A stretch of 64,000 bases of DNA, taken from Halogeometricum limi (GTDB lineage Archaea; Halobacteriota; Halobacteria; Halobacteriales; Haloferacaceae). Below the pieces are notes generated by a model. The model was not told the DNA's origin. It was given only the letters and a program-made list of their open reading frames with translations, and made no database searches. This document shows, piece after piece, positions 10,232-45,258 of this stretch. The DNA is taken from the NCBI RefSeq assembly GCF_900115785.1, contig NZ_FOYS01000005.1, forward strand, positions 310,001 through 374,000, in the 5' to 3' direction. Each line of letters starts with the position of its first letter. The first letter of the stretch is position 1. The translations under genes were made by a program, and so were the position numbers.

Positions 10232-10263
10232 TCCGTAGGTGTGAATCACGACCGAGCGGAAAG

Positions 10264-10273
10264 TAGTTTATCA
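10264..10273 (-). promoter_or_regulatory. TATA box of the FNT-Usp gene
   Basis: TGATAAACTA on the minus strand, about 27 nt before an expected transcript start near 10241, leaving a leader of roughly 10 nt to the ATG at 10231. This argues against the alternative start at 10249. Confidence 0.45.
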
Positions 10274-10513
10274 CCTGTCCGTCACGGGATGTCGACAGAG
10301 GGGACGGGGTCGACGGCCCGGTTGCGGCCCCGTGTCCCCCGACAGAGAGCACTCCGTCGAACGGCACTTCCGGCTCGTCGTCGGCCGCGGCCGATTCGTC
10401 CAGAGATGCAGAAGCGTCGCCGGAACGGGCCACCGAGTGGAGATTCGACGGAGCTACGGTACCGTATCTCGGCCGCGCCACGGGTTTAGTCGAGTCGCTC
10501 CCGTGACCGCCGC

Positions 10514-22950: not shown

Positions 22951-23610
22951 ATGTCCATCACAGCGAAAGTCCACATCGAACACGACAGGCTCGCACTCGT
23001 CCCCACGTTGACCGCACTCGACGACATCAAGATTCGAGTCATGACGCAGACGAACACCGACCCGGGAGCGACGGTGTTTCCCTTCCTCGTGGAGTACGAC
23101 GACGGAGCGGAACTGGACGAGATGCTCGACGCCGACCCCACCGTCGAAAGTTACGACCTCATCGACCGAACGGACGGAACGAGCATCTACTACATCGAGC
23201 ACACCCCCGAGACGAAGCTCATCAGCACCGTGGTGACGGACGTGAACGGGTTCCTCGTCCACACCGAGACGACCGGTCGGGGATGGCTCGTCCGACTCCT
23301 CCTCCCCGACAAGCAGGCGCTCAACACCATCTGGGAGTACGCGAGCGAGAACGACATCACGCTCGACATCATCGAGATATACAGCAACGACGAGGCGGGG
23401 GGCGACACGTCGTACGGACTGACCGACGAACAGGAGTGCGCGCTGAAGACGGCCTACGAACGCGGGTACTTCGGCGAACCCCGAGACATCTCGCTCAGCG
23501 GCGTGGCCGAGGAGATGGGACTGTCGTCGACGGCGATGAGCGGACGCCTCCGCCGTGGGATGCGCAACCTCATCGCGGCGACTATCGCGGACCACGACGA
23601 CGAGGAGTGA
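22951..23610 (+). CDS. HTH-10 (bacterio-opsin activator-like) transcriptional regulator
   Basis: 219 residues from the ATG at 22951. The N-terminal 150 residues form the alpha/beta sensor half common to haloarchaeal HTH-10 proteins (VFPFLVEYDDGAELDEML, RGWLVRLLLPDKQALNTI). The C-terminal HTH-10 domain reads LTDEQECALKTAYERGYFGE, ISLSGVAEEMGLSSTAMSGR and LRRGMRNLIAAT. Such regulators are typically single-target activators or repressors. It is the nearest regulator upstream of the methyl-group catabolism island (560 bp before the demethylase gene), so it is a candidate for its control; that link is inference. Confidence 0.88.
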   Translation: MSITAKVHIEHDRLALVPTLTALDDIKIRVMTQTNTDPGATVFPFLVEYDDGAELDEMLDADPTVESYDLIDRTDGTSIYYIEHTPETKLISTVVTDVNGFLVHTETTGRGWLVRLLLPDKQALNTIWEYASENDITLDIIEIYSNDEAGGDTSYGLTDEQECALKTAYERGYFGEPRDISLSGVAEEMGLSSTAMSGRLRRGMRNLIAATIADHDDEE

Positions 23611-24170: not shown

Positions 24171-25547
24171 ATGTCCGGGAACCAAGAGCATCCGAACTAT
24201 CCGAGCATCGATCAGTCAGACAGAGTCCTCCCGCGGAACCTCCGACAGTCCGGCGACCCGGGGATTCAGATGCTGGTCTCGACGCGAGTCCGCAAGTCCC
24301 CGTTCTTCGATAAGTCGTTCAACGAAGAGGGCGCGTGGCGGTGCACAGTGTACAACCGTACCTACCACCCTCGCGGCCTCGTCGAACCGGAAGACGGCGG
24401 AGCGATGGCGGAGTACGAAGCGCTGACCGAGAAAGTAACTCTCTGGGACGTGGCCGTCGAGCGCCAGATTCGCGTGAAAGGCCCCGACGCCGAGGCGCTC
24501 ACCGACTACCTCATCACTCGCGACGCGACGCAGATCGAGACGATGAAAGGGAAGTACGTCATTCTCTGCAACGAGAAGGGCGGCATCCTGAACGACCCGG
24601 TTCTCCTCCGCGTCGCGGACGACGAGTTCTGGTTCTCTATCTCCGACTCGACGCTCATGCAGTGGATTCAGGGCGTCAACGTCGGCAAGGACTTCGACGT
24701 CGAAGTCGACGAGATCGACGTCGCCCCGATGCAGATTCAGGGTCCGCTCTCCGAAGACGTGATGATCGACGTCGTCGGCGAAGAGGTCAGCGACATCGCG
24801 TACTACGGCCTCATGGAAGCCGAGATCAACGGCTGCGAAGTACTCATCAGCCAGACCGGCTTCTCGGGCGAGAAAGGCTTCGAGATCTACGTAAAGGACG
24901 CGACGAAGTACGGCGAACGCGTGTGGGACCCGGTGATGGAGACGGTGAAAGAACACGGCGGCATGCAGATCGCGCCGGGTCACCACCGCCGCATCGCCGC
25001 GGGTATCCTCTCGTGGGGCCAGGACATGGACCACGAGACGTCTCCGTTCCAGGTCAACCTCGGCTACCAAGTCCCCGACGACAAGGAGGGCGACTACATC
25101 GGCAAAGAGGTCCTCGAAGAGCAGAAAGAGCAGATCGAAAACGGCGAGTACCCGTTCAACCTCAAGCTCGTCGGTCTGAAGATGGCCGGCGAACCCATCC
25201 GTGACTACGCGCCCGACTTCTGGATCGTCTCCGACCCGGACACGGGCGAAGAGTGCGGCTACATGACCTCGCCGTGGTACAACCCGGACCTCGACACCAA
25301 CATCGGCCTCGGCTTCGTGCCTGCGGAGAAACTGCAGAACGAGACCGACGCCAACCTCAACGACGAAATCTACGAGGAAGACCTCGACATCGAGTTCCAG
25401 GTGCACCTGCCCGACGAGTACGCCGAAGAAGACGACGAACCCGTCTTCGCGACGGTCGCAGAGGTGCCGTTCAAAGAGTCCGTCAACCCGAGCGCTCGCG
25501 AACAGGCGAAACTCGGTGCTGCCCAACAAGCGCAGCAGAACGACTAG
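24171..25547 (+). CDS. DmdA-like tetrahydrofolate-dependent demethylase (GcvT superfamily); candidate betaine demethylase
   Basis: 458 residues. The core is a GcvT/aminomethyltransferase fold of the DMSP demethylase (DmdA) type rather than the glycine cleavage type: GGILNDPVLLRVADDEFW, FSISDSTLMQWIQGV, VAPMQIQGPLSEDVM, SQTGFSGEKGFEIYVKD and LSWGQDMDHETSPFQVNLGY all follow the DmdA plan. DmdA takes a methyl group from an onium compound and makes 5-methyl-THF. It is longer than DmdA (about 370), with an N-terminal extension of about 35 residues and an acidic C-terminal tail. The neighbours (betaine-type transporter, dimethylglycine/sarcosine oxidases, GlyA, MetF) point to glycine betaine as substrate; no DmdB/C/D-like genes for DMSP breakdown are in the window. 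DMSP or another methylated onium remains possible. Confidence 0.75.
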   Translation: MSGNQEHPNYPSIDQSDRVLPRNLRQSGDPGIQMLVSTRVRKSPFFDKSFNEEGAWRCTVYNRTYHPRGLVEPEDGGAMAEYEALTEKVTLWDVAVERQIRVKGPDAEALTDYLITRDATQIETMKGKYVILCNEKGGILNDPVLLRVADDEFWFSISDSTLMQWIQGVNVGKDFDVEVDEIDVAPMQIQGPLSEDVMIDVVGEEVSDIAYYGLMEAEINGCEVLISQTGFSGEKGFEIYVKDATKYGERVWDPVMETVKEHGGMQIAPGHHRRIAAGILSWGQDMDHETSPFQVNLGYQVPDDKEGDYIGKEVLEEQKEQIENGEYPFNLKLVGLKMAGEPIRDYAPDFWIVSDPDTGEECGYMTSPWYNPDLDTNIGLGFVPAEKLQNETDANLNDEIYEEDLDIEFQVHLPDEYAEEDDEPVFATVAEVPFKESVNPSAREQAKLGAAQQAQQND

Positions 25548-25739: not shown

Positions 25740-26987
25740 CTACTCGTACAGCGTGTACTCGTCGGTGAGTTCGGTGACGCGTTCGCCGACGGCCGCGACG
25801 ACAGCCTCGTCGTCCGGGTCGTCAATCACGTCGACGATGAGGTCGGCGACCTCTCGGCACGCGTTCTCGCCGAACCCGCGAGCGGTGAGCGCGGGCGTCC
25901 CGGCGCGGATACCGCTGGGGTTGAACGCAGAGCGTGTCTCGCCGGGCACCGTGTTCGCGTTGAGGACGATACCCGCCTCTTCGAGCGCTTCCTCGACGTC
26001 TTTGCCCGTCGTGTCGGGATGCGACGAGCGCAGGTCGACGAGGACGAGGTGGTTGTCGGTGCCGCCGGAGACCAACTCCAGTCCGTGACTGCGGAGGCGT
26101 TCACCGAGGGCTTTCGCGTTCGCGACGGTCTGTTCGGCGTACTCGGTGAACTCCGGTTGGAGGGCCTCTCCGAACCCGACGGCTTTCCCCGCGACGTTGT
26201 GCATCGCGGGGCCGCCCTGCGTCCCCGGAAAGACGGCCTTGTCGATGGCGTCGGCGTATTCGTCCGACGTCATGATGATGCCGCCGCGGCCCGCACGGAT
26301 GGTCTTGTGCGTCGACCCCGTGACGAAGTCCGCGACGCCGACGGGAGACTCGTGGACGCCCGCGGCGACGAGGCCCGTGATGTGGGCGATGTCCGCGAGG
26401 TGGTATGCGTCGACGGCGTCTGCGGCCGCCTGAATGCGCTCGAAGTCCACCTCGCGCGGGTACGCCGAGTAGCCCGAAACGACGACGTCGGGGTCGAACT
26501 CCTCGGCCGTCTCTCTGAGTCCCTCGTAGTCGAGATACCCCGTCTCGGGGTCGACTTCGTACTGTTCGACGTCGTACACCTGCCCGGCGAAGTTCGCCGG
26601 GTGGCCGTGCGAGAGATGCCCGCCGTGCGTCAGGTCGAGCGAGAGAATCTTGTCGCCGGGGTCGAGCACCGCGAGATAGACGCCCATGTTCGCCTGCGAC
26701 CCCGAGTGCGGTTGGACGTTGACGTGGTCTGCGCCCCACAGTTCCTTCGCGCGGTCGATAGCCAACTGTTCGACCTCGTCGGCGTACCGACACCCGCCGT
26801 AGTACCGACTGCCGGGGTAGCCCTCCGCGTAGTTGTTCGTCAGTTCGGAGCTCTGCGCCTCCATGACCGCCTCGCTCACGTGGTTCTCACTGGCAATCAT
26901 CGAGAGCGTGCCGTTCTGTCGTTCGCGTTCGCCTTCGAGTGCGCGAGCGACCGCCGGGTCGGTCTCTGCGACCGTATCGTACGTCAT
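25740..26987 (-). CDS. glyA: Serine hydroxymethyltransferase
   Basis: 415 residues. PLP enzyme that joins glycine and 5,10-methylene-THF into serine (reversible). Family motifs are LSMIASENHVSEAV, NYAEGYPGSRYYGGC, VNVQPHSGSQANM, THGGHLSHG, ADIAHITGLVAAGVH, the PLP lysine in VTGSTHKTIRAGRGG and GIRAGTPALTARGF. It is a little shorter than bacterial GlyA, as in other archaea. A TATA box at 27011-27020 makes the ATG at 26987 leaderless. It stands next to the demethylase and metF genes, where it would convert the glycine and C1 units released by betaine breakdown into serine. Confidence 0.95.
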   Translation of the reverse strand: MTYDTVAETDPAVARALEGERERQNGTLSMIASENHVSEAVMEAQSSELTNNYAEGYPGSRYYGGCRYADEVEQLAIDRAKELWGADHVNVQPHSGSQANMGVYLAVLDPGDKILSLDLTHGGHLSHGHPANFAGQVYDVEQYEVDPETGYLDYEGLRETAEEFDPDVVVSGYSAYPREVDFERIQAAADAVDAYHLADIAHITGLVAAGVHESPVGVADFVTGSTHKTIRAGRGGIIMTSDEYADAIDKAVFPGTQGGPAMHNVAGKAVGFGEALQPEFTEYAEQTVANAKALGERLRSHGLELVSGGTDNHLVLVDLRSSHPDTTGKDVEEALEEAGIVLNANTVPGETRSAFNPSGIRAGTPALTARGFGENACREVADLIVDVIDDPDDEAVVAAVGERVTELTDEYTLYE

Positions 26988-27128: not shown

Positions 27129-27989
27129 TCAGTCTTCGAGGCGGCCGTACCGCCACGACTCGGTGTCGGGCGTCTGGTTGAACGTGTAGATGTGTATCCC
27201 GCGAATCTTGTACTCGTCGTCGCCGACGTAGGGCGCGAGGCCGTCGATGAGTTCGTCGGGTTTGTACGTCCCGCGCGACCCGACCAACTGCTTGACGAAC
27301 CCGAGGATGCCCGTCGTCTTCTTCAGGAACTTGACCGAGTCGCCGACGCCCACCTTCTTCGATATCTGGAGCAGTCGCTGGTACTTCATCACGCCGGGGA
27401 TGCCGACTTCGACCGGGAGGTCGACGCCCTGCGCGCGGATGTCCTCTATCCACTCGACCACCGTCTCGGGGTCGTAACAGAGTTGTGTAACGATGTACGT
27501 CGCGTACGGCTCTTTCCGCTGCATCGCCTCCATCAGCGTCTCGTCGTCGATGAAGTCGTGTCCCTCGGGATAGCCGGTGATGCCGACTTCCTCGAAGTAG
27601 TACTCCATGTCGTCGAGCGCCGAGAGGAGGTCGTACGCCGACTCGAACTCGCCGACGGGTTCCTCTTTGTCGCCGCCGGGGACGAAGATGTCCGTCACGC
27701 CGGCGTCTCGCAGTCGTCGTGCGATGTCACGTAGTTGGTCTCGGTCCTCGACGTACCTGGCCGCGATGTGGGGCACGACGTCGTACCCCAACTCGGCCGC
27801 CGTCTCGGTTCGCTCGACGGTGCGCTCGATACCCAGTTGCGGCGACGTGGTGATGGCGATTGTCGCCCCGTCCGGGAGGTGCGTTATCTCCTCGTCGAAA
27901 CTCTCGAACGGCATCAACTCGAACCGCGCACCCGTGAGGAGCGTCTCGACGCCGTCGGGGTGTGAAACGGTTCGCGTACCTAAGGACAT
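27129..27989 (-). CDS. metF: Methylenetetrahydrofolate reductase
   Basis: 286 residues. TIM-barrel flavoprotein that interconverts 5,10-methylene-THF and 5-methyl-THF. Visible blocks are ARFELMPFESFDEEI, AAELGYDVVPHIAARY, GVTDIFVPGGDKEEPVGEF, EVGITGYPEGH, YATYIVTQLCYDPETVVEWI, VEVGIPGVMK and the C-terminal IRGIHIYTFNQ. In this setting it may run in the oxidative direction, returning the methyl group made by the demethylase to the methylene-THF pool; direction is inference. The start codon lies inside a 15 bp palindrome and a second inverted repeat lies 38 bp upstream. Confidence 0.92.
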   Translation of the reverse strand: MSLGTRTVSHPDGVETLLTGARFELMPFESFDEEITHLPDGATIAITTSPQLGIERTVERTETAAELGYDVVPHIAARYVEDRDQLRDIARRLRDAGVTDIFVPGGDKEEPVGEFESAYDLLSALDDMEYYFEEVGITGYPEGHDFIDDETLMEAMQRKEPYATYIVTQLCYDPETVVEWIEDIRAQGVDLPVEVGIPGVMKYQRLLQISKKVGVGDSVKFLKKTTGILGFVKQLVGSRGTYKPDELIDGLAPYVGDDEYKIRGIHIYTFNQTPDTESWRYGRLED

Positions 27990-28069: not shown

Positions 28070-29299
28070 TCACGCGGTCGTCGGCGTACACTGGCGAATC
28101 CGCGTCGCCACGTCCTCGTACGAGACGCGACGCTTCGGCCCGTCCGCGACGCGGTGGACGACCAAGTCGAGGAGGTTGAGTTGCCGGAGGAGTTCCTGTG
28201 TCGGTTGGCGGTCCATGTCGAGTCGCCGTTGCACCTCGAACAGCGTCGTCGACTCGACGACGGCGTCGACGACGTCCTCTATCCGACAGTCGTCCGGGAG
28301 GCCGAGGCCGTCGGTGACGAGTTGTTCGGTCGGGACCGACTCGGCGTCCTCCGCCGCGGCCGATTCGGGCGCGTCCGGTTCGTCCACGACTGCGGCGTCG
28401 TCCGACGAGGACTCGGCCGCGTCCGTCTCGGCACGCTCCGAACCCGTCTCGGGCACCGACGTCGACTGCGGGGTGGACGGTTCCGCGGACGTGGACGGCT
28501 CCGAGGACATGGACGGCTTCGAAGAAGTCGACGGTTCCGCGGACGTCGATTGCGTGTCGTACGACGTGGGGTCGTGGACGCCCGCCTCTATCATGTACCG
28601 GCGGACCGTCTCGGAGGCGACGTCCATCTCTATCTTCCGACTCATCTCGACGAACGTCTCGCAGGTGTCGTACAGGTGACGGAGGTACGGCGTGTCCTCG
28701 TACGGCGGTACCGACTCGTCGCGGACGGCGGCGAGTTCGTCCGTCTCGTCGTCTGCGGTGTCGTCATCGACGGTCGGCGCGGAACCGTCGGCGTCGTCTG
28801 CGACACCGGCGTCGTTCGCGTCGGTTCCGCTGTCACTCGTTTCGGTGACCGTCGGCGTCGCCGCGCTCTCCGTCTCGACGTCAGTCGTTCCACCCGCCCC
28901 GACGTCCGCGTGACCGTCGGTTTCGATGCGTCGCGGCGAATCGCCGTCCGGGTCGATGTGGAGGACGACGCTCACGACGAGTTCCGCCTCCGGAGAGAGC
29001 GAGACGTCTCGCGTCTCCGCGGAGACGACGGCGTCGCTCGTCGCGACGAGTTCGTCGACCGCGTCCGTGTCGAACTCGACGCAAAGACCGCCGTCGGCGG
29101 TCAGCGACGCTCCCGACGGTGTCAGGTCGGGACACGACCCCTCCGGCGCGAGGAGCGAGAGCGGCACGTCCATCGCGACGCGCAACGCGTCGCTACTCGC
29201 GTCGCCGGTGGACGCCTCGATACTTCGAAGCGTCCGCCCGTCGGACTCGAACTGTTCGACTATCTCCGAGAGTGCGTCGAATGATGTTTGGAGTGCCAT
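28070..29299 (-). CDS. Multi-segment haloarchaeal protein with helix-turn-helix-like ends, likely regulator
   Basis: 409 residues from the ATG at 29299 (MALQTSFDALSEIVEQF); an ATG 33 bp upstream is also in frame. Three ordered parts are joined by acidic Ser/Thr/Pro-rich linkers: residues 1-120 (TDAVDELVATSDAVVSAET and beta strands), a middle segment PYLRHLYDTCETFVEMSRKI with VASETVRRYMIEAGVH that looks like a wHTH, and a C-terminal segment VESTTLFEVQRRLDMDRQPT with LLRQLNLLDLVVHRVADG, also HTH-like. The linker around residue 265 repeats EPSTSS/KPSMSS/EPSTSA. No family name is claimed. Its place between metF and the hydrolase pair makes it a second candidate regulator of the island. Confidence 0.6.
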   Translation of the reverse strand: MALQTSFDALSEIVEQFESDGRTLRSIEASTGDASSDALRVAMDVPLSLLAPEGSCPDLTPSGASLTADGGLCVEFDTDAVDELVATSDAVVSAETRDVSLSPEAELVVSVVLHIDPDGDSPRRIETDGHADVGAGGTTDVETESAATPTVTETSDSGTDANDAGVADDADGSAPTVDDDTADDETDELAAVRDESVPPYEDTPYLRHLYDTCETFVEMSRKIEMDVASETVRRYMIEAGVHDPTSYDTQSTSAEPSTSSKPSMSSEPSTSAEPSTPQSTSVPETGSERAETDAAESSSDDAAVVDEPDAPESAAAEDAESVPTEQLVTDGLGLPDDCRIEDVVDAVVESTTLFEVQRRLDMDRQPTQELLRQLNLLDLVVHRVADGPKRRVSYEDVATRIRQCTPTTA

Positions 29300-29432
29300 G
29301 TCATTGCTAAACTGTGACACGTCGTGTATCATAATGGTAGGTGAGGAATACGCAACCCATTCAAACCATACCCGTTCGAGCGGCGGTGTAACAGGCTTCG
29401 GAGACAGTCAAGAATATCGACTAGTCCGGCGA

Positions 29433-30389
29433 TTAGACTCGCGTCGCGACGGCGGCGAGTCGTTCCCCGGAGACGACGACGGACTCTCTGGCGAGCGAGT
29501 AGACGACGCCCCCCTCGGCCGCGGTCACGGTCTGGAGTCGTTCGAACGACGAGGGGCAGTAGATAGCGCCGAGTTCGGTGCCTTCCGCCAGTTCGTCACC
29601 GACGGTGAGTCCGCGACGCAACTCGAACAGTCCCGACTCGTCGGCGACGGTGTACGCCGCGTCGTCTCGGAGCGTCGTCTGTTCGGGCGAGTCCGCCGGT
29701 GTCGCCGCGAGGACGTCGAGTTCGCGGAGGACGTTCTCCACGCCGTCGACGCCCGCTTGCGCCGCCTCGTGAGCCACCGTCCGACTGTTCGAGAGTTCGG
29801 CCGTGACCGCGGGGATACCCGCCCGCGCGGTGGCCGTGCGGAACGTTCCGGGGCCGTCCTCGTCGTCCGGCGTCTCGTCGCCGTCGGTCAGAAGATACGC
29901 GGTGCCGAACGCCTCGGCGAGTCGACGCGCGTCGTCGTCGCCCTCGCGGTATCTCGCGTGTTCGAGCATGTCCGGCGTCCCCGTGTGAAGGTCCACGACG
30001 GCGTCGGCGTCGGCGGCGAGTTCCCAGAGTCGCGCGGCGATTCGCTCCTGCAGGCTCCCGTTCTCGTCGCCCGGCCAGACGCGGTTGAGGTTCGGGTTCA
30101 TCACGTCGTACTCGGCCGGCGTCATGTACGAACGGTGGTCGAACGCGAGCGAGTTCACGACGGGGACGACGACGACGGTACCCGCGAGTTCGGTCGAGCG
30201 GAGTCTGTCGTGGAGACGACGCAACGCGGCCGGTCCGTTGAGTTCGATACCGTGTTGGGCCGCCTGAACGTACACCGTCGGCCCGTCGCCGCCGGCGTAC
30301 CGATGAACCGTCACCGAGACGTCCGTCCCCGAGGAGAGGCGTCCGAGCGACCGTTCGGTCGCCGTGTGTTCGGCCGGTTCGTACACCAT
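29433..30389 (-). CDS. Succinylglutamate desuccinylase/aspartoacylase-family zinc hydrolase
   Basis: 318 residues from the ATG at 30389; the frame is open 81 bp further but that part is Arg-rich and overlaps the neighbouring gene's promoter. It is an M14-type zinc hydrolase with VYVQAAQHGIELNGPAAL (zinc His and Glu), NPNLNRVWPG and AVVDLHTGTPDMLEH (second His), then GIPAVTAELSNSR with the likely catalytic Glu and a beta-rich C-terminal domain. Relatives remove acyl groups from amino acids (AstE, aspartoacylase, DoeB of ectoine breakdown). It is divergent from the creatininase-family gene with 75 bp between starts, suggesting shared control. Confidence 0.82.
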   Translation of the reverse strand: MVYEPAEHTATERSLGRLSSGTDVSVTVHRYAGGDGPTVYVQAAQHGIELNGPAALRRLHDRLRSTELAGTVVVVPVVNSLAFDHRSYMTPAEYDVMNPNLNRVWPGDENGSLQERIAARLWELAADADAVVDLHTGTPDMLEHARYREGDDDARRLAEAFGTAYLLTDGDETPDDEDGPGTFRTATARAGIPAVTAELSNSRTVAHEAAQAGVDGVENVLRELDVLAATPADSPEQTTLRDDAAYTVADESGLFELRRGLTVGDELAEGTELGAIYCPSSFERLQTVTAAEGGVVYSLARESVVVSGERLAAVATRV

Positions 30390-30464
30390 ACGGTCCCGTC
30401 GGCGGCGACGATGAAAAACGTCCGGAGTGGTGGCTTTATCCGCCTCCCGTCTGAGCCATCGACT

Positions 30465-31202
30465 ATGCACCTCGCGACCGAGACGTGGACCGACCTGGAC
30501 GCCGTCGAGACGGACGTCGCCTTACTCCCGGTTGGGAGCACCGAACAGCACGGCCCGCACGCCCCCCTCGGGACCGACACGCTGAACGCCGAAGCGGTCG
30601 CCGAGGCGGCCGCCGAGAAGTACGCCGACCCCGTCGTCGTCGCGCCGGCGATTCCCGTCGGCGTCGCCGAGGAACATCGGCGGTTCACGGGGACGTTGTG
30701 GACCGCGGAAGACACGTTCCGCGCCTACGTCCGCGACGTGGTCGCCAGTCTCGCTTCGCACGGGTGGGACCACGTCGTCGTGGTCAACGGACACGGGGGG
30801 AACATCGCCGCTCTCGGCGAGGTGACCGCCCGTATCACCCGACGCGACGAGGCGTTCGCCGTCCCGTTCACGTGGTTCGACGAAGTCGGCGAGCACAGTT
30901 CCGACATGGGGCACGGCGGTCCGTTGGAGACGTCGCTCCTCCGGCACGCCAACCCGGAGACGGTCCACGAGGACAGACTGGACGACGCCGCCGAGAACGG
31001 GAGCGACCGGTGGGGCGACTGGCAGGGCCGGGTGAACCTCGCCGTCGACTCCCACGAGTTCACCGAGAACGGCGTCGTCGGCGACCCCCGAGACGGGAGC
31101 GCCGAACGAGGGGAGGAACTGATGGAGCGAGCGACCGACGCGCTGGTCGAACTCCTCGACGTGATTCGCGAGCGAGAGACCGGCCCCCGCGACGGCTACT
31201 GA
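30465..31202 (+). CDS. Creatininase-family amidohydrolase
   Basis: 245 residues. Family motifs are LPVGSTEQHGPHAPLGTDTL (metal Glu, His and Asp), VGVAEEHRRFTGTL, VVVNGHGGNIAAL and DMGHGGPLETSLL. Creatininase opens creatinine to creatine; other members open lactams or process pyrroline-type rings, so the substrate is open. Creatine degradation feeds sarcosine, which would link it to the oxidases downstream, but no creatinase gene is visible here. The next gene starts 108 bp downstream with its own TATA box. Confidence 0.85.
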   Translation: MHLATETWTDLDAVETDVALLPVGSTEQHGPHAPLGTDTLNAEAVAEAAAEKYADPVVVAPAIPVGVAEEHRRFTGTLWTAEDTFRAYVRDVVASLASHGWDHVVVVNGHGGNIAALGEVTARITRRDEAFAVPFTWFDEVGEHSSDMGHGGPLETSLLRHANPETVHEDRLDDAAENGSDRWGDWQGRVNLAVDSHEFTENGVVGDPRDGSAERGEELMERATDALVELLDVIRERETGPRDGY

Positions 31203-31309: not shown

Positions 31310-33880
31310 ATGAATACGACCGACAGCGTGCCGAGTCGTGCTGACACCGTCATCGTCGGTGCCGGCATCGTCGGCTGTAACCTCGCGTATCAACTGACGA
31401 AACTCGGCCGGGAAGACGTGGTCGTCGTCGACCAGGGTCCGATGCCGACGACGGGCGGGTCTTCGACGCACGCCCCGGGCATCATGTTCCAGACGGCCGA
31501 AGACAAGATTCTGACCAAGTTCGCGAACTACAGCCGAGAGCTCTACTCGGACCTCGAAGGCGCGGACGGACAGCAGGCGTACAACGAAGTCGGCGGCATC
31601 GAAGTCGCCCGAACCGAAGAGCGGATGGACTTCCTACAGCGACGCGTCGAGAACGCGAAGTCGTGGGGGATAGACGACCCGCAGATTCTCTCCCCCGGCG
31701 AAGTCGAGGAGAAACTCCCCCTCGTGGACTCGGACGTCATCCTCGGCGGCTACTACTCGCCGACCGACGGGCAGGTATCGGGCGTCGTGGCCTGCGACGC
31801 CCTCGCCCGGGAGGCGATGGACCGCGGCGCGACGTTCGTCCCGCACACGCGGACCGAGGACGTCGACGTCGAGGACGGCGAGGTGAAGTCGGTCGTCACC
31901 GAGAACGGCGACATCGAGTGTAACGACGTCGTCATCGCGACGAACATCTGGGCGCGCCAGTTGGGCGAGGAACTCGACGTCCACATCCCCATCACCCCGG
32001 TGGAGCACCAGTACACGATGACCGAGTCGCTCGACGAGATGGCCGACAGCGCCGTCGACGTGACGAACCATCCCCTGTTCGAGAACTACCACAACGTCTC
32101 CGGAGACAAGGCGAAGCGACTCCTCGTCGGGCCGGACCGACCCATCCTGCGCGACCAGGACCACGCGATGTACTACCGGACGCACGGGGACTCCTACGGT
32201 ATCGGGTCGTACAATCACGAGCCAATCGTGCCCGACCCGCGGGAACTCGGCGGCAACGACCCGGACGGCGAACAGGGCTCTGTCCACGAGTTCACCGAGT
32301 ACCACATGGAGAACGCGACGCACCCGGACCGGCCGGACAAAGCGCCGCGCCGCGCGAGCGACGAACTCCTCCCCGCGACCGAAGGAGAGGAGTTGGAGTT
32401 CAAGTACAACGGGATGTTCTCGGAGACGCCGAACGGCCTCCCCGCGATGGGTCCCGTCGAGAAGTACGACGGCCTCTGGACGGCCGCGGGTATCTGGGTC
32501 ACGCACGCCGGCGGCGCGGGCAAGGCACTGGCGGAGTGGATGGAGACGGGCGTCCCCCGACTGGACGACGGCCCCATCGACCTCGCACACGCGGACGTGA
32601 ACCGGTTCGACGCCCACGAGGGCAGTTGGGACTTCGCCCGCGACATCGGCGGCGAGGAGTACCGCATCGTCTACAACGTGATGCATCCGAAGTGGGTGTG
32701 GACCGACAAGCAACGAGACATCCGGCGCACGCCGATGTACCACACGCACAAGGAGTACGGCGCGGAACTCTGGGCGGAGGCCGGGTGGGAAGCGCCACAG
32801 TGGTTCGAGTCCAACGCGGACTTGCTGGCGAAGTACGGCGACCAGATACCCGACAGAGAGGGCTGGGAAGCCGTCTACTGGTCGCCCATCGAGGGCGCGG
32901 AGGCGTTGAACGTTCGCGAGAACGTCGGTCTGCACGACATGACCTCGTTCAACAAGATGGAAGTCGTCGGCGAGGACGCCGGCGAGTTCGTGCAGTACCT
33001 CTGTACGAACGACATGGACATCGACGTCGGGTCGGTCAAGTACACGCTCATGTGTAACGAGGGCGGCGGCGTCCGCGCGGACATCACCGTCACGCGCACC
33101 GACGAGGACCGGTACCTCCTGTTGACGACGGGCCGGGAAGTCGGGAACAACCACGTCGCGTGGGTCCGGAGCCAAGCGCCCGACGGCGTCGTCGTCAACG
33201 ACGTGACCTCCAGTCTCGCCGCGATGGTCTGTACGGGACCGAACGCCCGCAAGGTACTCTCGAAGGTCACCGACGTCGACCTCTCGGACGACGCTTTCCC
33301 GTTCTTCACCAGCCAGCAGTTCTACGTGAAGAACGTGCCCGTGACCGCGCTCCGCGTCTCCTACGCGGGCGAACTCGGGTGGGAGCTGTACACGCCCTCC
33401 GAGTACGGTGAACGCCTCTGGGAGCACGTCCTCGAAGCGGGCGAGGAGTACGACATCCGGCCGTACGGCAACGGCGCGCTGAACGCCCTCCGTATCGAGA
33501 AGGGCTTCCGCCTGTGGGGGACCGACCTCCACACCGAACACAACCCGTACGAGGCGGGACTCGGATGGGCCGTCGACCTCGACACGGAGTTCATCGGGAA
33601 GGAAGCCGTCGAAGCCGCCGCCGCCGGCGACAACATCGACCACAAGGTGGCCTGCCTGACGCTCGACGACGAGGAGGCGATGGTGATGGCGCACCGCCCG
33701 GTCCTCGACGGAGACGAGACGCTCGGTTACGTCCACAGCGCCGAGTACGGCTACACGGAAGGAGCCTGCGTCGTCTACACCTACCTCCCACCGGAGTACG
33801 CTGAACCCGGCACCGAACTCGAGATACTGTACGAGGGCGACCGGTACGACGCGACGGTGCGAGAGGAACCCCTCGTCTGA
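31310..33880 (+). CDS. Dimethylglycine/sarcosine oxidase-type flavoprotein with GcvT domains (copy 1)
   Basis: 856 residues. Domains: FAD-binding DAO domain (about 10-380) with VIVGAGIVGCNLAYQL and SSTHAPGIMFQ, whose His matches the covalent flavin site of dimethylglycine oxidase; an FAO-M linker (about 385-440); then the folate-binding GcvT domain with NVGLHDMTSFNKMEV, NEGGGVRADITVTR and SYAGELGWELYTPSEYGERL, and a GcvT C-terminal barrel. Such enzymes demethylate dimethylglycine or sarcosine and pass the C1 unit to THF as methylene-THF. A paralogue starts 230 bp downstream, so one may act on dimethylglycine and the other on sarcosine. A T-tract ends the unit. Confidence 0.88.
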   Translation: MNTTDSVPSRADTVIVGAGIVGCNLAYQLTKLGREDVVVVDQGPMPTTGGSSTHAPGIMFQTAEDKILTKFANYSRELYSDLEGADGQQAYNEVGGIEVARTEERMDFLQRRVENAKSWGIDDPQILSPGEVEEKLPLVDSDVILGGYYSPTDGQVSGVVACDALAREAMDRGATFVPHTRTEDVDVEDGEVKSVVTENGDIECNDVVIATNIWARQLGEELDVHIPITPVEHQYTMTESLDEMADSAVDVTNHPLFENYHNVSGDKAKRLLVGPDRPILRDQDHAMYYRTHGDSYGIGSYNHEPIVPDPRELGGNDPDGEQGSVHEFTEYHMENATHPDRPDKAPRRASDELLPATEGEELEFKYNGMFSETPNGLPAMGPVEKYDGLWTAAGIWVTHAGGAGKALAEWMETGVPRLDDGPIDLAHADVNRFDAHEGSWDFARDIGGEEYRIVYNVMHPKWVWTDKQRDIRRTPMYHTHKEYGAELWAEAGWEAPQWFESNADLLAKYGDQIPDREGWEAVYWSPIEGAEALNVRENVGLHDMTSFNKMEVVGEDAGEFVQYLCTNDMDIDVGSVKYTLMCNEGGGVRADITVTRTDEDRYLLLTTGREVGNNHVAWVRSQAPDGVVVNDVTSSLAAMVCTGPNARKVLSKVTDVDLSDDAFPFFTSQQFYVKNVPVTALRVSYAGELGWELYTPSEYGERLWEHVLEAGEEYDIRPYGNGALNALRIEKGFRLWGTDLHTEHNPYEAGLGWAVDLDTEFIGKEAVEAAAAGDNIDHKVACLTLDDEEAMVMAHRPVLDGDETLGYVHSAEYGYTEGACVVYTYLPPEYAEPGTELEILYEGDRYDATVREEPLV

Positions 33881-34078: not shown

Positions 34079-34109
34079 ACCGTGACAGATGGACACCGGC
34101 ACGAGTGAA

Positions 34110-36662
34110 ATGAGCACACCGGACCTCCCATCAGAGTCGGATACCGTCGTCATCGGCGCGGGCGCGGTCGGATGTAGCGTGGCGTACCACCTGACCGAAC
34201 TCGGCGCAGAGGACGTGACAGTCGTCGACCAAGGCCCTCTCCCGGTAACCGGCGGGTCGTCCGTCCACGCGCCGGGCATCATGTTCCAGACGTCGCCGTC
34301 GAAGATACAGACGAAGGCGGCGTACTACACCAGTCGGTTCCTCTCCGACATCGACGCCTACGACGAAGTCGGCGGGATAGAGGTCGCTCGAAGCGAAGAG
34401 CGGATGGACTTCCTCCGCCGACGCGTCGAGTGGGCCACGTCGTACGGACTCCCGGACCCGGAACTGCTCTCTCCCGAGGAAGTAGCAGAGCAACTCCCCC
34501 TCGTCGACGAAGACGAGATTCTCGGCGGCTACTACTCTCCCACGGACGGCCGCGTCGACGGCATCGCAGCCCTGCAGTGGTACATGGAACACGCCGACGC
34601 CGACTTCTACGGCGACACCGAAGTGCTCGACTTGGAGGTGTCGAACGGCGAAATCGACGCCGTCGTCACCGACCGCGGACGAATCGAGTGCGGACGCTGC
34701 GTCGTCGCGACGAACAACTGGGGCTACCAGACGGGCCAGATGGCCGGTCTGGACCTTCCCATCACTCCCGTCGAACACCAGTACGTCGTCACCGAACCGA
34801 TGGAGGAGTTGGCCGACGCCGACTCGTCCGTCGGCGAACACACCGACGGGATGGACGTCCCGGGCAACCGCGACATCCAGGAGTTCATGAGCGAGGGACC
34901 GACGCAACCCGTCGGCCGCGACCAGGACCACTCGCTGTACTTCCGAACCCACGGCGACGCCCTCGGGATGGGGTCGTACAACCACGAACCCCTCCCAATC
35001 GACCCCGACGACATGGGGAAGAACTCCGAGGACCGACAGGCATCGGTCCGCGGGTTCACGAGAGAACACTGGGAGCGTCCGACGCACCCCAACCGAGACA
35101 AATCGGCGAAGCAGGCGTTCGGCGAACTCCTCCCCGCCTCCGCCGACCAGGAGTACGCCGTCACCGAGAACGGTATCTTCGTGTTCACGCCGGACGGGAT
35201 GCCCGCCGTCGGCGAGACGGCGCAGGTGGACGGTCTGTGGACCGCCCTCGCCATCTGGTGGACGCACTCTGCGGGGTACGGCAAGATAGTCGCCGAGTGG
35301 ATGGAGAACGGCGTTCCGCGTCTCCCGTCCGGCCCCGTCGACACCGGCGGCATCCACGTCCGACGCTTCGAACCGCACGCCGGCGAGAAGGACTACTTCG
35401 TCGACCGAGGGGCGAAGCGGTACGAACAGGTGTATTCCATCGTCGAACCGCGCTGGCAACCCGACGACCACCGCGCCCTGCGGACGAGTCCGTTCTACCA
35501 CCAACAGCAGGAGTTGGGCGCGAACTTCGTCCAGGGCGGTGGCTGGGAGTCCGCGCAGTGGTACGACTCGAACGAGGATTTGGTCGACCGCTACGAAGAA
35601 GAGATTCCCGACCAAGACGGCTGGCAGTCCATCAATCGCTCCGCCATCGAGGGAGCCGAGCATCTCCACACCCGAGAGAACGTGTCGATGTTCGACATGA
35701 CCTCGTTCAGTTCCATCTCGGTCGAAGGGCCGGACAGCGAGGCGTTCCTCCAGCGCGTCTGTAGCAACGACATGGAGATAGACGTCGGACAGGTCCGCTA
35801 CTCGCTGCTGTTGAACGAGGGCGGCGGCATCCTCGCGGACGTGACCGTCGTCAAACTCGACGAGGAGGAGTACATGGTCACTACCGGCGGCGGCAACTCG
35901 CCGGGCATCCACGGCAACTGGCTGAAAGAGCGCGCTCCCGACACCGTCTCGGTGAACATCTCCGAGGGCGGGCAGGCCACCATCGGCCTGTGGGGACCGA
36001 AATCTCGACTCCTCCTCCAGCGATGCACCGACGCCGACGTGAGCAAGAGCGGGTTCGGCTACTTCCGCGCGAAGCAGATGTACGTCGGCGAAGTGCCCGT
36101 CGTCGCCCTGCGCGTCTCCTACGTGGGCGAACTCGGCTGGGAACTGTGGGCACCCTCCGAGTACGGACACCGCCTCTGGGAGACGCTCTGGGAGGCCGGA
36201 CAGGACCTCGACGTGCGGCCGATGGGCGGCGGCGCGTTAGAGTCGATGCGACTGGAGAAAGGCTTCCGCCTGTGGGGGACCGACATCGACACCGACTCGA
36301 ACCCGTTCGAGGCCGGACTGTCGTTCGCCGTCGACATGGACACCGACTTCGTCGGCAAGGAGGCACTGGAAATCGCACAGGACGAGGGTATCGACTCCCG
36401 CATCACGCCCATCACGCTCGACGACTCGGACGACATCCTGCTGAGCGGTCGTCCCGTGCTGAAAGACGGCGAGAGAATCGGCTACGTACAGGCGGCCGAC
36501 TTCGGCTACAGCATCGGCGAGTCCATCGCGTACACGTACCTTCCGGCAGAGTACACGGAGGCCGGCACCGCCGTCGAAGTGCTGTGTGAGGGCAACCGCT
36601 ACGACGCGACGGTCCGCGACGAACCGCTGTTCGACGCCGGAAGAGACAAGATACTCCGATAG
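34110..36662 (+). CDS. Dimethylglycine/sarcosine oxidase-type flavoprotein with GcvT domains (copy 2)
   Basis: 850 residues from the ATG at 34110 (an upstream ATG at 34089 is probably not transcribed). Same plan as copy 1: VVIGAGAVGCSVAYHLTEL, SSVHAPGIMFQ with the covalent-flavin His, a middle linker, then NVSMFDMTSFSSISVEGPD, NEGGGILADVTVVKLDEEEY, SYVGELGWELWAPSEYGHRL and EKGFRLWGTDI. The two copies are clearly paralogous along the full length but differ in substrate-side segments, for example WRSA-type loops and the GGGNSPGIHG insert here. The threonine/serine dehydratase gene follows after 60 bp without a terminator, so the pair is probably one operon. Confidence 0.88.
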   Translation: MSTPDLPSESDTVVIGAGAVGCSVAYHLTELGAEDVTVVDQGPLPVTGGSSVHAPGIMFQTSPSKIQTKAAYYTSRFLSDIDAYDEVGGIEVARSEERMDFLRRRVEWATSYGLPDPELLSPEEVAEQLPLVDEDEILGGYYSPTDGRVDGIAALQWYMEHADADFYGDTEVLDLEVSNGEIDAVVTDRGRIECGRCVVATNNWGYQTGQMAGLDLPITPVEHQYVVTEPMEELADADSSVGEHTDGMDVPGNRDIQEFMSEGPTQPVGRDQDHSLYFRTHGDALGMGSYNHEPLPIDPDDMGKNSEDRQASVRGFTREHWERPTHPNRDKSAKQAFGELLPASADQEYAVTENGIFVFTPDGMPAVGETAQVDGLWTALAIWWTHSAGYGKIVAEWMENGVPRLPSGPVDTGGIHVRRFEPHAGEKDYFVDRGAKRYEQVYSIVEPRWQPDDHRALRTSPFYHQQQELGANFVQGGGWESAQWYDSNEDLVDRYEEEIPDQDGWQSINRSAIEGAEHLHTRENVSMFDMTSFSSISVEGPDSEAFLQRVCSNDMEIDVGQVRYSLLLNEGGGILADVTVVKLDEEEYMVTTGGGNSPGIHGNWLKERAPDTVSVNISEGGQATIGLWGPKSRLLLQRCTDADVSKSGFGYFRAKQMYVGEVPVVALRVSYVGELGWELWAPSEYGHRLWETLWEAGQDLDVRPMGGGALESMRLEKGFRLWGTDIDTDSNPFEAGLSFAVDMDTDFVGKEALEIAQDEGIDSRITPITLDDSDDILLSGRPVLKDGERIGYVQAADFGYSIGESIAYTYLPAEYTEAGTAVEVLCEGNRYDATVRDEPLFDAGRDKILR

Positions 36663-36722: not shown

Positions 36723-37970
36723 ATGACCCAGACCGAATCAGACGAACTTCCAGTCCAGTACGCCGACATCGAACGCGCCCGCGAACGCCTCGACGACGAC
36801 ACCGTCGTCAAACAGACGCCCGTCGAACGGAGTTCGTCGTTGGACGCGTTCGTCGGCGGCGAGGTGTACCTGAAGATGGAGCATCTCCAGTGGACGGGGT
36901 CGTTCAAGACGCGCGGCGCGTACAACAAAATCGTCCAATCGGTCGAAGACGGCGTCGAGGAGTTCGTCGCCGCGAGTGCGGGTAACCACGCTCAGGGCGT
37001 CGCCCTCGCGGCCACCAAGTGCGGCGCGGACTCGACCATCTTCATGCCGAAGAACGCGCCGCAGGCGAAGGTGAACGCGACCCGGAGTTACGGCGCGACG
37101 GTCGAACTCGTCGGCAAGGACTTCCAAGAGACCATGTCGCACGCGAAGTCGGCCGTCGAGGAGACGGACGCCGAGTTCGTTCACGCCTACGACGACCCGG
37201 ACATCATCGCGGGGCAGGGAACGCTCGGGTCCGAGATGTACCACGACGTGCCGGACGTCGACACCGTCGTCGTCCCCATCGGCGGCGGCGGTCTCATCAG
37301 CGGTATCTCGACGGCTATCAAGCATCTCTCGCCGGAGACGCGCGTCGTCGGCGTGCAAGCGACCGGCGCCGAGACGGTCCACGAGAGCCTCGACAAAGGA
37401 ATTCCGGTCACTCTCGACGAAGTCGACACCATCGCCGACGGTATCGCCACGGGCGGCATCTCCGAACGGACGCTCCGCACCATCGAGGCGAACGTGGACG
37501 AAGTCGTCACCGTCACCGACACGCAGATAGCGGAGGCGATACTCCTGCTGTTAGAACGCGCGAAGCAGGCCGTCGAAGGCGCGGGCGCGGCGTCGGTAGC
37601 CGCCATCCTGAGCGACGACCTGGACGTGTCGGGCGAGACGGTGATGCCGCTTCTCTGCGGCGGGAACCTCGACATGACACAGCTTCAGACGGTTCTCGTC
37701 CACGCACTCACGAAACGCCAGCAACTCCTGCGTCTCCGTGTCCGCATCGACGACCAACCGGGCGTGATGGAGGACCTGTCGGGCATCATCGCCGACCACG
37801 GCGCGAACATCCACGACGTCCGTCACGACCGCTCCGTCGACGACTTAGAGATCGGTGAGGCGTACCTCGTCTTCCGCGTCGAAGCGAGCGGGAGCGAACA
37901 CGCCCAGTCGATACTCGACGCACTCAGCGACGCGGGATACTCCGTCGAGAACATCGCACAGACCATCTGA
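36723..37970 (+). CDS. ilvA: Threonine/serine ammonia-lyase with ACT domain
   Basis: 415 residues. PLP fold-type II dehydratase: the PLP lysine is in WTGSFKTRGAYNKI, then AASAGNHAQGVALAA, VVVPIGGGGLISGI and VEGAGAASVAAILS. An ACT-type regulatory domain occupies residues 335-415 (LRVRIDDQPGVMEDLSGIIA). It converts threonine to 2-oxobutanoate and often serine to pyruvate. Its position directly behind a sarcosine/dimethylglycine oxidase gene suggests a catabolic role, removing serine made from glycine, rather than isoleucine synthesis. Substrate preference cannot be read from sequence; the label ilvA follows the family. Confidence 0.88.
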   Translation: MTQTESDELPVQYADIERARERLDDDTVVKQTPVERSSSLDAFVGGEVYLKMEHLQWTGSFKTRGAYNKIVQSVEDGVEEFVAASAGNHAQGVALAATKCGADSTIFMPKNAPQAKVNATRSYGATVELVGKDFQETMSHAKSAVEETDAEFVHAYDDPDIIAGQGTLGSEMYHDVPDVDTVVVPIGGGGLISGISTAIKHLSPETRVVGVQATGAETVHESLDKGIPVTLDEVDTIADGIATGGISERTLRTIEANVDEVVTVTDTQIAEAILLLLERAKQAVEGAGAASVAAILSDDLDVSGETVMPLLCGGNLDMTQLQTVLVHALTKRQQLLRLRVRIDDQPGVMEDLSGIIADHGANIHDVRHDRSVDDLEIGEAYLVFRVEASGSEHAQSILDALSDAGYSVENIAQTI

Positions 37971-38047: not shown

Positions 38048-38491
38048 ATGTACGAACAGATACTGATACCGTACGACGGGAGCGACGAGGCTCGGCGGGG
38101 CGCAGAACACGGGATACAACTGGCAAAGCGACTCGGTTCGACAGTGCACGCACTGTACGTGATAGACCTTCCGGGGGTCCCCCGAGCGCTCTCACTGCGG
38201 GACGACGAGGAGAAACTCCGAGCGGAGTACCGCGAGTACGGCGAGCGGATACTCGGGGAGATATGCGAGGCCGCCGAATCCGAGGGGGTCGAGTGCACGA
38301 CGAACATCCGGACGGGGTCCCAGAGCGACCAGATAGTCGATTTCGCCGAAGACGAGGGGATGGACGTCATCGTGATGGGGTCGGCGTACAGAGGAACGCT
38401 CGGCAACCTCATCGGCGGAACGACGGACAGAGTCGTCCGGACGGCGACGGTGCCGGTCATCTCCCAACGGATGGATATGAACGACCTGTAA
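38048..38491 (+). CDS. Universal stress protein UspA
   Basis: 147 residues, single Usp domain. N-terminus QILIPYDGSDEARRGAEHGI and the nucleotide-binding pattern VMGSAYRGTLGNLIGGTTDR followed by VVRTATVPVI mark an ATP-binding type. A TATA-like ACATATTTT about 33 bp upstream supports the ATG at 38048. It follows the dehydratase gene by 77 bp with its own promoter. Function is general stress survival; no specific partner is visible. Confidence 0.9.
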   Translation: MYEQILIPYDGSDEARRGAEHGIQLAKRLGSTVHALYVIDLPGVPRALSLRDDEEKLRAEYREYGERILGEICEAAESEGVECTTNIRTGSQSDQIVDFAEDEGMDVIVMGSAYRGTLGNLIGGTTDRVVRTATVPVISQRMDMNDL

Positions 38492-39247: not shown

Positions 39248-40999
39248 ATGTCAGATAGAGACGATACGGCCGGGCAGATGTCCAACGGACTGCAGGTCGA
39301 ACTGTTCCACCCGGACTCCGACAGGAAGCCGGGAGACACCAACATCCAGGGGTATGGGTTCGACATCCATCCGGTCGTCTTCCCGGTCGCACTGTTACTC
39401 ATCGGGATGTTCGTCGCCGCGACGCTCCTGTTGGGACAACAGGCCGCGGACGCGTACTCCGCGGTTCGGAGCTTCTTCGAGGGGAACTTCGGCTGGTTCT
39501 TCCTCCTCGCGGTCAACATGTTCATCGTGACCATCCTGTACTTCGCGTTCGGTAAGTACGGGACCATTCGTATCGGCGGCGTCCAAGCCGAGAAAGAGTT
39601 CAGCGACTTCTCGTGGATGGCGATGCTGTTCAGCGCGGGCATGGGTATCGGACTCATGTTCTTCAGCGTCTCAGAACCGCTGTACTACTTCCAGAACGTT
39701 CCCGGCTTCTTCTCGGCGGAGGCCGGAACCGGCGCGGCGGCGTCCGTCGCGATGGCACAGACGTTCTTCCACTGGGGATTCCACCCGTGGGCCATCTACG
39801 GACTGGTCGGACTCGGACTCGCGTTCTTCTCGTTCAACCGCGGCCTCCCACTGACGTTCCGGTCGATATTCTGGCCGTTGTTGGGTGACCGAATCTACGG
39901 CTGGCCGGGGCACGTCATCGACCTGGTGACCGTGTTCGCGACGCTGTTCGGTCTCTCCACCTCGCTCGGACTCGGGGTGGCGCAGGTCAACACCGGCATC
40001 TCGTACGTCGGCGGCGACATGCTCGGTCTCGTTCAGGTGCCGACGGGGACCATCCCGCAGATAATCCTCATCGGTGCCATCACGCTCATCGCGACGGCGT
40101 CCGTCGCGGCGGGTCTGGAGAACGGCGTGAAGCGTCTGAGCACCGTCAACCTCTACTTGATGTTGACGCTCCTCGGATTCCTCCTCATCGTGGGTCCCAC
40201 CGCCTACATCTTCGGCGCGTGGGTACAGGGTCTCGGGACGTACTTCGGAAACCTGCTCTCGCTGTCGTTCTTCACCGGAACGATGGGCGAGGGCGCGGCG
40301 ACCGTCTCGGGATGGACCGTGTTCTACTGGGCGTGGTGGATCGCCTGGTCGCCGTTCGTCGGGATGTTCATCGCGCGCATCTCGAAGGGTCGGACCGTCC
40401 GGGAGTTCGTCCTGGGCGTGCTGTTCCTGCCCTCGCTGTTCTCGACGGTCTGGCTGTCGGCGTTCGGTGGGAGCGCGCTGTTCAACTCGCTGCAGGGTAA
40501 CGGCGCGGCCCTCGCGACGTACAACGAACTGGGTCAGACCGTCGCGATGTTCGCGCTCTTAGAGCAGTTCCCGCTGGGTGCGATATCGGGAATCTTGGCG
40601 ACGGTCCTCGTCGTCACGTTCTTCGTCACCTCCTCGGACTCGGGGTCGCTCGTCATCGACCACCTCACCTCCGGCGGCAAGCACGACGTGCCGAAGGCCC
40701 AGCGTATCTTCTGGGCGGTCACCGAAGGCGCCGTCGCGGCGCTCCTGCTGTACGGCGGCGGCCTGGGCGCACTCCAGACGGCGGCCATCGCGACGGGCTT
40801 CCCGTTCGCAGTCATCCTCGTGTTGATGTGCTTCACGGTGTATCAAGGGCTCAAGAACGAGTACGAGATACTCTCGTCCGAACAGTTCGCAGAGCGCATC
40901 CAAGACATGACCGCGGACGGAGACCTGGACGTGGTAACGTCGGGAGACGAGATGGTGACGGACATCAAAGGAGGTGCCGACGCGGAGGGAAGCGACTGA
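39248..40999 (+). CDS. BCCT-family betaine/choline/carnitine transporter
   Basis: 583 residues, about 12 membrane helices. Family signatures are FSAGMGIGLMFFSVSEPLYY (the Gly-rich unwound segment that binds the trimethylammonium group), TFFHWGFHPWAIYGLVGL, and the YWAWWIAWSPFVGMFIARIS block before the helix carrying FVTSSDSGSLVIDHLTSG. The N-terminal tail is short and the C-terminal tail acidic, lacking the basic osmosensor of BetP, so it may serve nutrition as much as osmoprotection. As the only solute transporter in the methyl-catabolism island it is the likely entry point for glycine betaine (or DMSP or choline). Confidence 0.92.
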   Translation: MSDRDDTAGQMSNGLQVELFHPDSDRKPGDTNIQGYGFDIHPVVFPVALLLIGMFVAATLLLGQQAADAYSAVRSFFEGNFGWFFLLAVNMFIVTILYFAFGKYGTIRIGGVQAEKEFSDFSWMAMLFSAGMGIGLMFFSVSEPLYYFQNVPGFFSAEAGTGAAASVAMAQTFFHWGFHPWAIYGLVGLGLAFFSFNRGLPLTFRSIFWPLLGDRIYGWPGHVIDLVTVFATLFGLSTSLGLGVAQVNTGISYVGGDMLGLVQVPTGTIPQIILIGAITLIATASVAAGLENGVKRLSTVNLYLMLTLLGFLLIVGPTAYIFGAWVQGLGTYFGNLLSLSFFTGTMGEGAATVSGWTVFYWAWWIAWSPFVGMFIARISKGRTVREFVLGVLFLPSLFSTVWLSAFGGSALFNSLQGNGAALATYNELGQTVAMFALLEQFPLGAISGILATVLVVTFFVTSSDSGSLVIDHLTSGGKHDVPKAQRIFWAVTEGAVAALLLYGGGLGALQTAAIATGFPFAVILVLMCFTVYQGLKNEYEILSSEQFAERIQDMTADGDLDVVTSGDEMVTDIKGGADAEGSD

Positions 41000-45225: not shown

Positions 45226-45249
45226 GACATATATCCTCGCTGGTCCGCC

Positions 45250-45258
45250 CATTAAGCT
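45250..45258 (-). promoter_or_regulatory. TATA box of folCP
   Basis: Minus-strand AGCTTAATG, centre 28 bp before the ATG at 45225. Confidence 0.45.

Follow-up and report, generated by a model that had tools for sequence, protein, structure and literature searches.

DmdAL, as we call the DmdA-like GcvT-fold protein encoded at 24171..25547 (+) of the window (the whole 64,000-nt stretch of Halogeometricum limi DNA analysed here), is quite probably a THF-dependent quaternary-amine demethylase that converts glycine betaine and THF to dimethylglycine and 5-methyl-THF, with substrate and product read from the genomic context. The original prediction had put forward such a betaine:THF demethylase, and the idea gains support from the computed fold, family placement and gene set, from co-occurrence of DmdAL with dimethylglycine oxidase and MTHFR, from its alternation with a Rieske oxygenase, and from the absence of the known betaine demethylase families (Rieske, MttB and BHMT) from the source genome. 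Since the substrate is read from the neighbours, any onium compound that yields dimethylglycine would fit. More broadly, the data make likely a cobalamin-free and oxygen-independent transfer of a betaine methyl group onto THF in about one-quarter of the sampled haloarchaeal genomes, and in Gemmatimonadota, Gammaproteobacteria and a Roseovarius, served in haloarchaea by a dedicated oxidative MTHFR.

The betaine routes given in the literature are GbcAB, BHMT and Mtg (PMC12478193). In 2011, four haloarchaeal genomes were noted to have dimethylglycine oxidases close to BCCT transporters, and betaine use was suspected and left open; one haloarchaeon grew no better with betaine, another was unable to use it for growth, and no first-step enzyme was named (PMC3102087). 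The open-licence full-text literature that we searched names no THF-dependent betaine demethylase of this kind, which is weak evidence.

RESULTS

Sequence features and family placement of DmdAL

The ORF check of the window gave a frame of 458 aa with an ATG start and a TAG stop. Both motifs that had been quoted as placing the protein with DMSP demethylases are present in it, GGILNDPVLLRVADDEFW starting at residue 137 and LSWGQDMDHETSPF at about residue 280, and the first carries the DmdA-type signature, with N-D-P and W-x-S versus D-D-L in GcvT. The second (GQDMDxxTxPF) is closer to GQDMDENTNPF of T. maritima GcvT than to GNDFDNNDNPF of SAR11 DmdA; in its quoted form, WGQDMD..TSPF, it fails to separate DmdA from GcvT and was rejected as a DmdA marker. 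The two terminal extensions reported earlier are real. Homology to SAR11 DmdA starts only at residue 36, and the family alignment shows that the N-terminal extension (QSDR..P.NLRQ.G) is kept in bacterial members too; hence it is a family signature and not a salt adaptation, and a salt-adapted tail was rejected as the cause of the extensions. At the other end, an acidic stretch, longer in the haloarchaeal members, is followed by a conserved PSARE motif.

DmdAL is a GCV_T protein (145 bits in Pfam), and its best NCBIfam model is DmdA (NF009133/PRK12486), with 248.3 bits, below the curated equivalog cut-off of 410; the control, Phaeobacter inhibens DmdA, scored 600.3 bits on the same model. Scores with the GcvT models were 161.4 bits (cut-off 300) and 139.7 bits (cut-off 235.85), both under the cut-off, and the model of TMAO demethylase, which is also of GcvT fold, gave 148 of 1100 bits. 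DmdAL is nearer DmdA than GcvT.

In a tree of 47 rows, the DmdAL family formed its own 100/100 clade on a long stem, and the four DmdA rows grouped 100/100 without it. The phylogenetic comparison proposed earlier thus puts DmdAL outside the verified DmdA clade, as represented by four rows and not by clades A–E one by one. The DmdAL clade adjoins DmdA and the relatives from DMSP clusters and is distant from GcvT and from the oxidase domains; the deeper branching order is uncertain owing to long branches.

The folate-site residues Y129, D142, E238, R274 and D285 are kept in DmdAL; the first three correspond to Y83, D96 and E195 of the T. maritima protein, and D142 and E238 are invariant across the family alignment. 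N141, P143, E97-R98-Q99, W154, S156 and D159 of the family are DmdA-type residues absent from the sampled GcvT and oxidase domains, and Q228 and Q294 are unique to the family, all others sampled having R and E, respectively. Every family member examined has F231, which aligns with W197 of SAR11 DmdA. Tryptophan at position 171 has been described as key to the interaction with DMSP, and a non-DmdA subclade carries F at this position (PMC7487153); we equate W171 with SAR11 W197, an offset of 26, because E178 and Y180 in that numbering match E204 and Y206. Roseobacter-type DmdA has Y at the W197 position, so the change to F in DmdAL is supportive and not diagnostic. Some accessions of the F-bearing subclade presumably belong to Haloquadratum.

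The AlphaFold2 model of DmdAL (mean pLDDT 73.6, pTM 0.74) has low confidence at residues 1-38 and 280-295, and its top PDB fold match is DmdA 3tfh (E 2e-30, TM-score 0.83 by target length), with GcvT next. Residues 280-295 are the modelled active-site loop. The model backs the fold and not the substrate. We place DmdAL among the GcvT-fold THF-dependent demethylases (DmdA, LigM, DesA and TMAO demethylase) as a protein other than DmdA, with an activity suggested by context.

A proposed betaine island in the window

DmdAL lies in an island that we propose, from the predicted roles of the neighbours, to hold every step of betaine catabolism other than betaine to dimethylglycine. The features are as follows.

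22951..23610 (+): BAT/HTH_10 regulator, candidate island regulator, just upstream of DmdAL (family scans)
24171..25547 (+): DmdAL, proposed glycine betaine:THF N-methyltransferase (profiles, tree, residues, model)
25740..26987 (-): GlyA serine hydroxymethyltransferase, glycine + methylene-THF to serine (NF000586, 581 bits, above cut-off)
27129..27989 (-): MTHFR-like protein, 286 aa, proposed 5-methyl-THF to 5,10-methylene-THF (PF02219, 53.5 bits, above cut-off)
28070..29332 (-): uncharacterised acidic protein, 420 aa, adjoining the MTHFR-like gene (no Pfam or NCBIfam match)
29433..30470 (-): AstE/AspA-type deacylase, DoeB-like (PF24827; in 10/48 full-length haloarchaeal loci)
30465..31202 (+): creatininase-family amidohydrolase, 245 aa (PF02633, 242 bits)
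31310..33880 (+): dimethylglycine oxidase/dehydrogenase-type protein 1, 856 aa (DAO + FAO_M + GCV_T)
34089..36662 (+): dimethylglycine/sarcosine oxidase-type protein 2, 857 aa (DAO + FAO_M + GCV_T)
36723..37970 (+): IlvA-type threonine/serine dehydratase, which would turn serine into pyruvate (TIGR01127, 441 bits, above cut-off)
38048..38491 (+): universal stress protein (PF00582; commonly beside the BCCT gene by synteny)
39248..40999 (+): BCCT transporter, proposed betaine uptake (PF02028, 593 bits; NF047988 betaine_BCCT, 517 bits, cut-off 650)
42829..45252 (-): fused folylpolyglutamate synthase/pterin-binding protein, FolC-FolP type (PF00809, PF02875, PF08245)
45494..47221 (+): formate--THF ligase, Fhs (NF010030, 820 bits, above cut-off)
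49591..50484 (+): FolD methylene-THF dehydrogenase/cyclohydrolase (NF010764, 547 bits, above cut-off)

Dimethylglycine oxidases had been said to be present, and the two found are 52% identical to each other. The closest PDB match to the MTHFR-like protein is 7xg9, a 5,10-MTHFR (E=1.4e-37). The BCCT protein carries the patterns WGFHPWAIY and WWIAW, which correspond to the aromatic box in BetP, a betaine carrier. Relatives of the acidic 420-aa protein adjoin the MTHFR-like gene at many DmdAL loci. The deacylase and creatininase genes are divergent and touching, and occur in betaine islands of several genera with no obvious role in betaine breakdown.

In the pathway that we propose, DmdAL would fill the betaine-to-dimethylglycine step, the sole step of the island lacking a known enzyme, by a redox-neutral reaction like that of DmdA: glycine betaine + THF to N,N-dimethylglycine + 5-methyl-THF. 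The MTHFR-like neighbour would oxidise 5-methyl-THF to 5,10-methylene-THF, a direction suggested by context, and the two oxidase-type proteins would take dimethylglycine through sarcosine to glycine, giving two more methylene-THF. Glycine and methylene-THF would then be joined to serine by GlyA and serine converted to pyruvate by the dehydratase, while FolD and Fhs would drain surplus C1 units to formate, so that betaine would end as pyruvate and formate.

Other GCV_T proteins, and search for known betaine demethylase families, in the source genome

The source genome (3.6 Mb in 8 contigs, 99.8% complete) has GCV_T domains at six places, two of which form the C-terminal parts of the window's dimethylglycine-oxidase-type proteins; the others are a T-protein, a protein of 364 residues (L009, contig 8), DmdAL and a DmdAL paralogue. 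The glycine-cleavage gcvT shares an operon with gcvH and two gcvP genes on another contig (L008:4279-8493), and on this ground the reading of DmdAL as the glycine-cleavage T-protein was rejected. The paralogue (L007:7030-8397, -; contig C8) has 68% identity to DmdAL and lies outside any betaine island, near a CstA-type transporter (8751-10577, -); from this location, substrates may differ within the DmdAL family. A second copy occurs in about 17/294 haloarchaeal genomes, always alongside the first.

Searches of the source genome for Ring_hydroxyl_A (PF00848), MTTB (PF06253) and S-methyl_trans, the BHMT family (PF02574), found none of the three; the PF00848 search detects the Haloferax volcanii control, and the controls of the other two were positive as well. 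Thus this genome shows no sign of a Rieske, corrinoid or BHMT route.

Co-occurrence across haloarchaeal genomes

We searched 294 haloarchaeal genomes with four proteins: DmdAL, the MTHFR-like protein, dimethylglycine oxidase and a GbcA-like Rieske protein. DmdAL was called present at 75% identity or more and the oxidase at E below 1e-100; presence and absence sets were compiled by hand from the search tables, and genomes that are related do not count as independent cases. The Rieske query was a protein of Haloarcula marismortui pNG700, whose best NCBIfam model is GbcA (132 bits, cut-off 670); by inference this protein acts on betaine. Its gene and one for a small HVO_B0008-domain protein (L091:24061-25577) lie between two dimethylglycine oxidase genes, so that both candidate betaine demethylases share one cluster.

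DmdAL was present in 68/294 genomes. The MTHFR-like protein was found in 71, comprising all 68 with DmdAL and 3 of the 226 others, and dimethylglycine oxidase in 100, again including 68/68 with DmdAL and 32/226 without. All 41 genomes with the GbcA-like protein also have the oxidase, as do 4 of 8 further genomes with weaker or partial matches. The 100 oxidase genomes split into 53 with DmdAL only, 30 with the GbcA-like protein only, 15 with both and 2 with neither (odds ratio 0.019, p=4e-12, uncorrected for shared ancestry). Given the 15 genomes with both, the two are not strict alternatives. Twelve genera have a mixed DmdAL state, and in them all positives have MTHFR and oxidase, the 60 negatives have MTHFR in only 2 cases (G057 and G265), and the 7 negatives with oxidase have the GbcA-like oxygenase in 7/7. 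This pattern within genera reduces, without removing, the concern over shared ancestry. The alternation with the GbcA-like protein and the tracking by MTHFR are most simply read to mean that DmdAL offers another entrance to the dimethylglycine route, one that would give 5-methyl-THF and so need MTHFR; that MTHFR tracks DmdAL and not the GbcA-like protein is expected if one yields 5-methyl-THF and the other formaldehyde.

In two genomes of one genus (g4), the DmdAL gene has a single in-frame stop (G017:C1:922768-924117 and G099:C12:37589-38938); these copies are possibly pseudogenes or sequencing errors.

DmdAL loci and bacterial relatives

Scanning GTDB genomes yielded 80 DmdAL loci, of which 71 are from haloarchaea and 9 from bacteria, the latter at about 62-63% identity. 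Within 10 kb of 48 full-length haloarchaeal copies, an MTHFR-like gene was found in 41 and a dimethylglycine oxidase gene in 26; a BAT-type regulator related to that of the window is present in 30/48. DmdC- and DmdD-like sequences were found at 0/80 loci and DmdB-like ones as three weak matches (29%), in agreement with the earlier statement that dmdB/C/D-type neighbours are absent.

Four of the nine bacterial loci (L084, L087, L088 and L090, all Gemmatimonadota or Gammaproteobacteria MAGs) have the DmdAL homologue (about 62% identity) tail-to-tail with a dimethylglycine-oxidase-type gene. That oxidase gene was found at 88-100% identity in 6/9 bacterial genomes and an MTHFR-family gene in 9/9, and 7/9 gave no match to the GbcA model. 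The Roseovarius locus is without informative neighbours, and that genome has many Rieske proteins.

Phaeobacter, Loktanella and Marivivens hold more distant relatives (36-39%) in clusters of dmdB/C/D type. Three Phaeobacter/Loktanella loci (L092:8052-12150, L093:7971-12049 and L101:5974-10121) contain genes for OsmC, enoyl-CoA hydratase and acyl-CoA synthetase, and the one DmdA-like protein scored gave 379 bits, just below the DmdA cut-off of 410; these proteins are likely a divergent group of DMSP demethylases. On a plasmid of Lichenihabitans psoromatis (L095:6660-11227), a DmdA-like gene (36% identity) stands with MTHFR, PurU and FolD and without dmdBCD; its product is possibly another THF demethylase.

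DISCUSSION

Alternative functions of DmdAL

The nearest characterised relative of DmdAL, by sequence as well as fold, is DmdA, the 36-39% relatives sit in dmdB/C/D-type clusters, and BCCT carriers can import DMSP (PMC13270143). DmdAL could accordingly be a true DMSP demethylase making methylmercaptopropionate and 5-methyl-THF, with betaine imported by the same BCCT carrier and degraded by other genes. We consider this very unlikely and rejected it: DmdAL reaches 248.3 bits against the cut-off of 410 and the 600 of Phaeobacter inhibens DmdA, it falls outside the DmdA clade, DmdC and DmdD occur at 0/80 loci, and nothing would explain why DmdAL is so strictly tied to dimethylglycine oxidase. F231 in place of SAR11 W197 also speaks against it, though Roseobacter DmdA has Y there. 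The same tie to the oxidases, and the fold and folate-site residues that DmdAL has in common with GcvT and the C-terminal domain of the oxidases, would suit an accessory aminomethyltransferase that converts formaldehyde or iminium from the oxidase to 5,10-methylene-THF, as that domain does. The oxidases have their own GCV_T domain, however, 30 genomes have them with the Rieske enzyme and without DmdAL, the MTHFR-like gene following DmdAL would be unexplained, and N141-D142-P143 is DmdA-like and not the D-D of GcvT; such a role is therefore highly improbable.

Some genomes have two DmdAL paralogues, the creatininase and AstE/DoeB-type genes of the island are unexplained, and TMAO demethylase likewise matches in the GcvT fold (148 bits). 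These points would agree with demethylation of another quaternary amine from the dimethylglycine route or one next to it, such as carnitine, choline, proline betaine or TMAO, betaine being a minor substrate or none. But the products would not directly feed dimethylglycine oxidase, betaine is the substrate suggested by the alternation with the GbcA-like oxygenase, and the TMAO demethylase score is just 148 of 1100 bits; we regard this reading as unlikely.

Implications

Our work points to one gene for the conversion of betaine to dimethylglycine in most oxidase-bearing haloarchaea. If DmdAL is a betaine:THF demethylase, betaine would join the donors handled by GcvT-fold THF demethylases, and dimethylglycine would be reached in another way than by GbcAB, BHMT or MtgB, with neither oxygen nor vitamin B12 needed. 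The lineage-specific haloarchaeal MTHFR would be explained as well, and surveys would have to leave DmdAL proteins out of their counts of DMSP demethylases.

Comparison with known systems

With DmdA, DmdAL has in common the GcvT fold, the folate-site Asp and Glu, the best fold match and the proposed redox-neutral methyl transfer to THF, as well as the N-D-P, E-R-Q and W-x-S-x-x-D signatures, three signatures that GcvT and dimethylglycine oxidase lack. It differs in identity (about 26-32%), in score (248 of 410 bits), in its separate 100/100 clade, in having F231 for W197, Q228 for R194 and Q294 for E259, in the conserved N-terminal 35-residue and C-terminal extensions, and in gene neighbourhood, being without dmdBCD and tied to dimethylglycine oxidase and MTHFR. 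GcvT has the fold, the folate site and part of the WGQDMD motif in common with DmdAL, but has D-D where DmdAL has N-D, and the DmdAL locus contains no GcvH or GcvP partner.

Among the betaine enzymes, MtgB/MtgBCD and BHMT have the same proposed substrate, the methyl group ending on THF (Mtg) or homocysteine (BHMT). MtgB belongs to the MttB superfamily and uses B12, BHMT has the S-methyl_trans fold, and both are absent from the source genome. GbcAB, likewise absent from it, is an unrelated iron oxygenase that yields formaldehyde (PMC12478193), and is proposed to carry out the same betaine-to-dimethylglycine step in haloarchaea without DmdAL.

In Sphingobium lignivorans SYK-6, the MTHFR homologue S6MTHFR, which accompanies LigM, oxidises 5-methyl-THF to 5,10-methylene-THF (PMC12585457). 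As proposed for DmdAL, LigM is a THF demethylase derived from GcvT with an MTHFR homologue as its partner; the best PDB match of the window's MTHFR-like protein is 7xg9. A partner MTHFR, which would recycle 5-methyl-THF, accompanies DmdAL in 68/68 genomes and, within 10 kb, at 41/48 loci. The sequence match of LigM to DmdAL is marginal (22 bits), and LigM O-demethylates aryl methyl ethers, whereas the substrate of the haloarchaeal pair would be an N-methyl onium compound.
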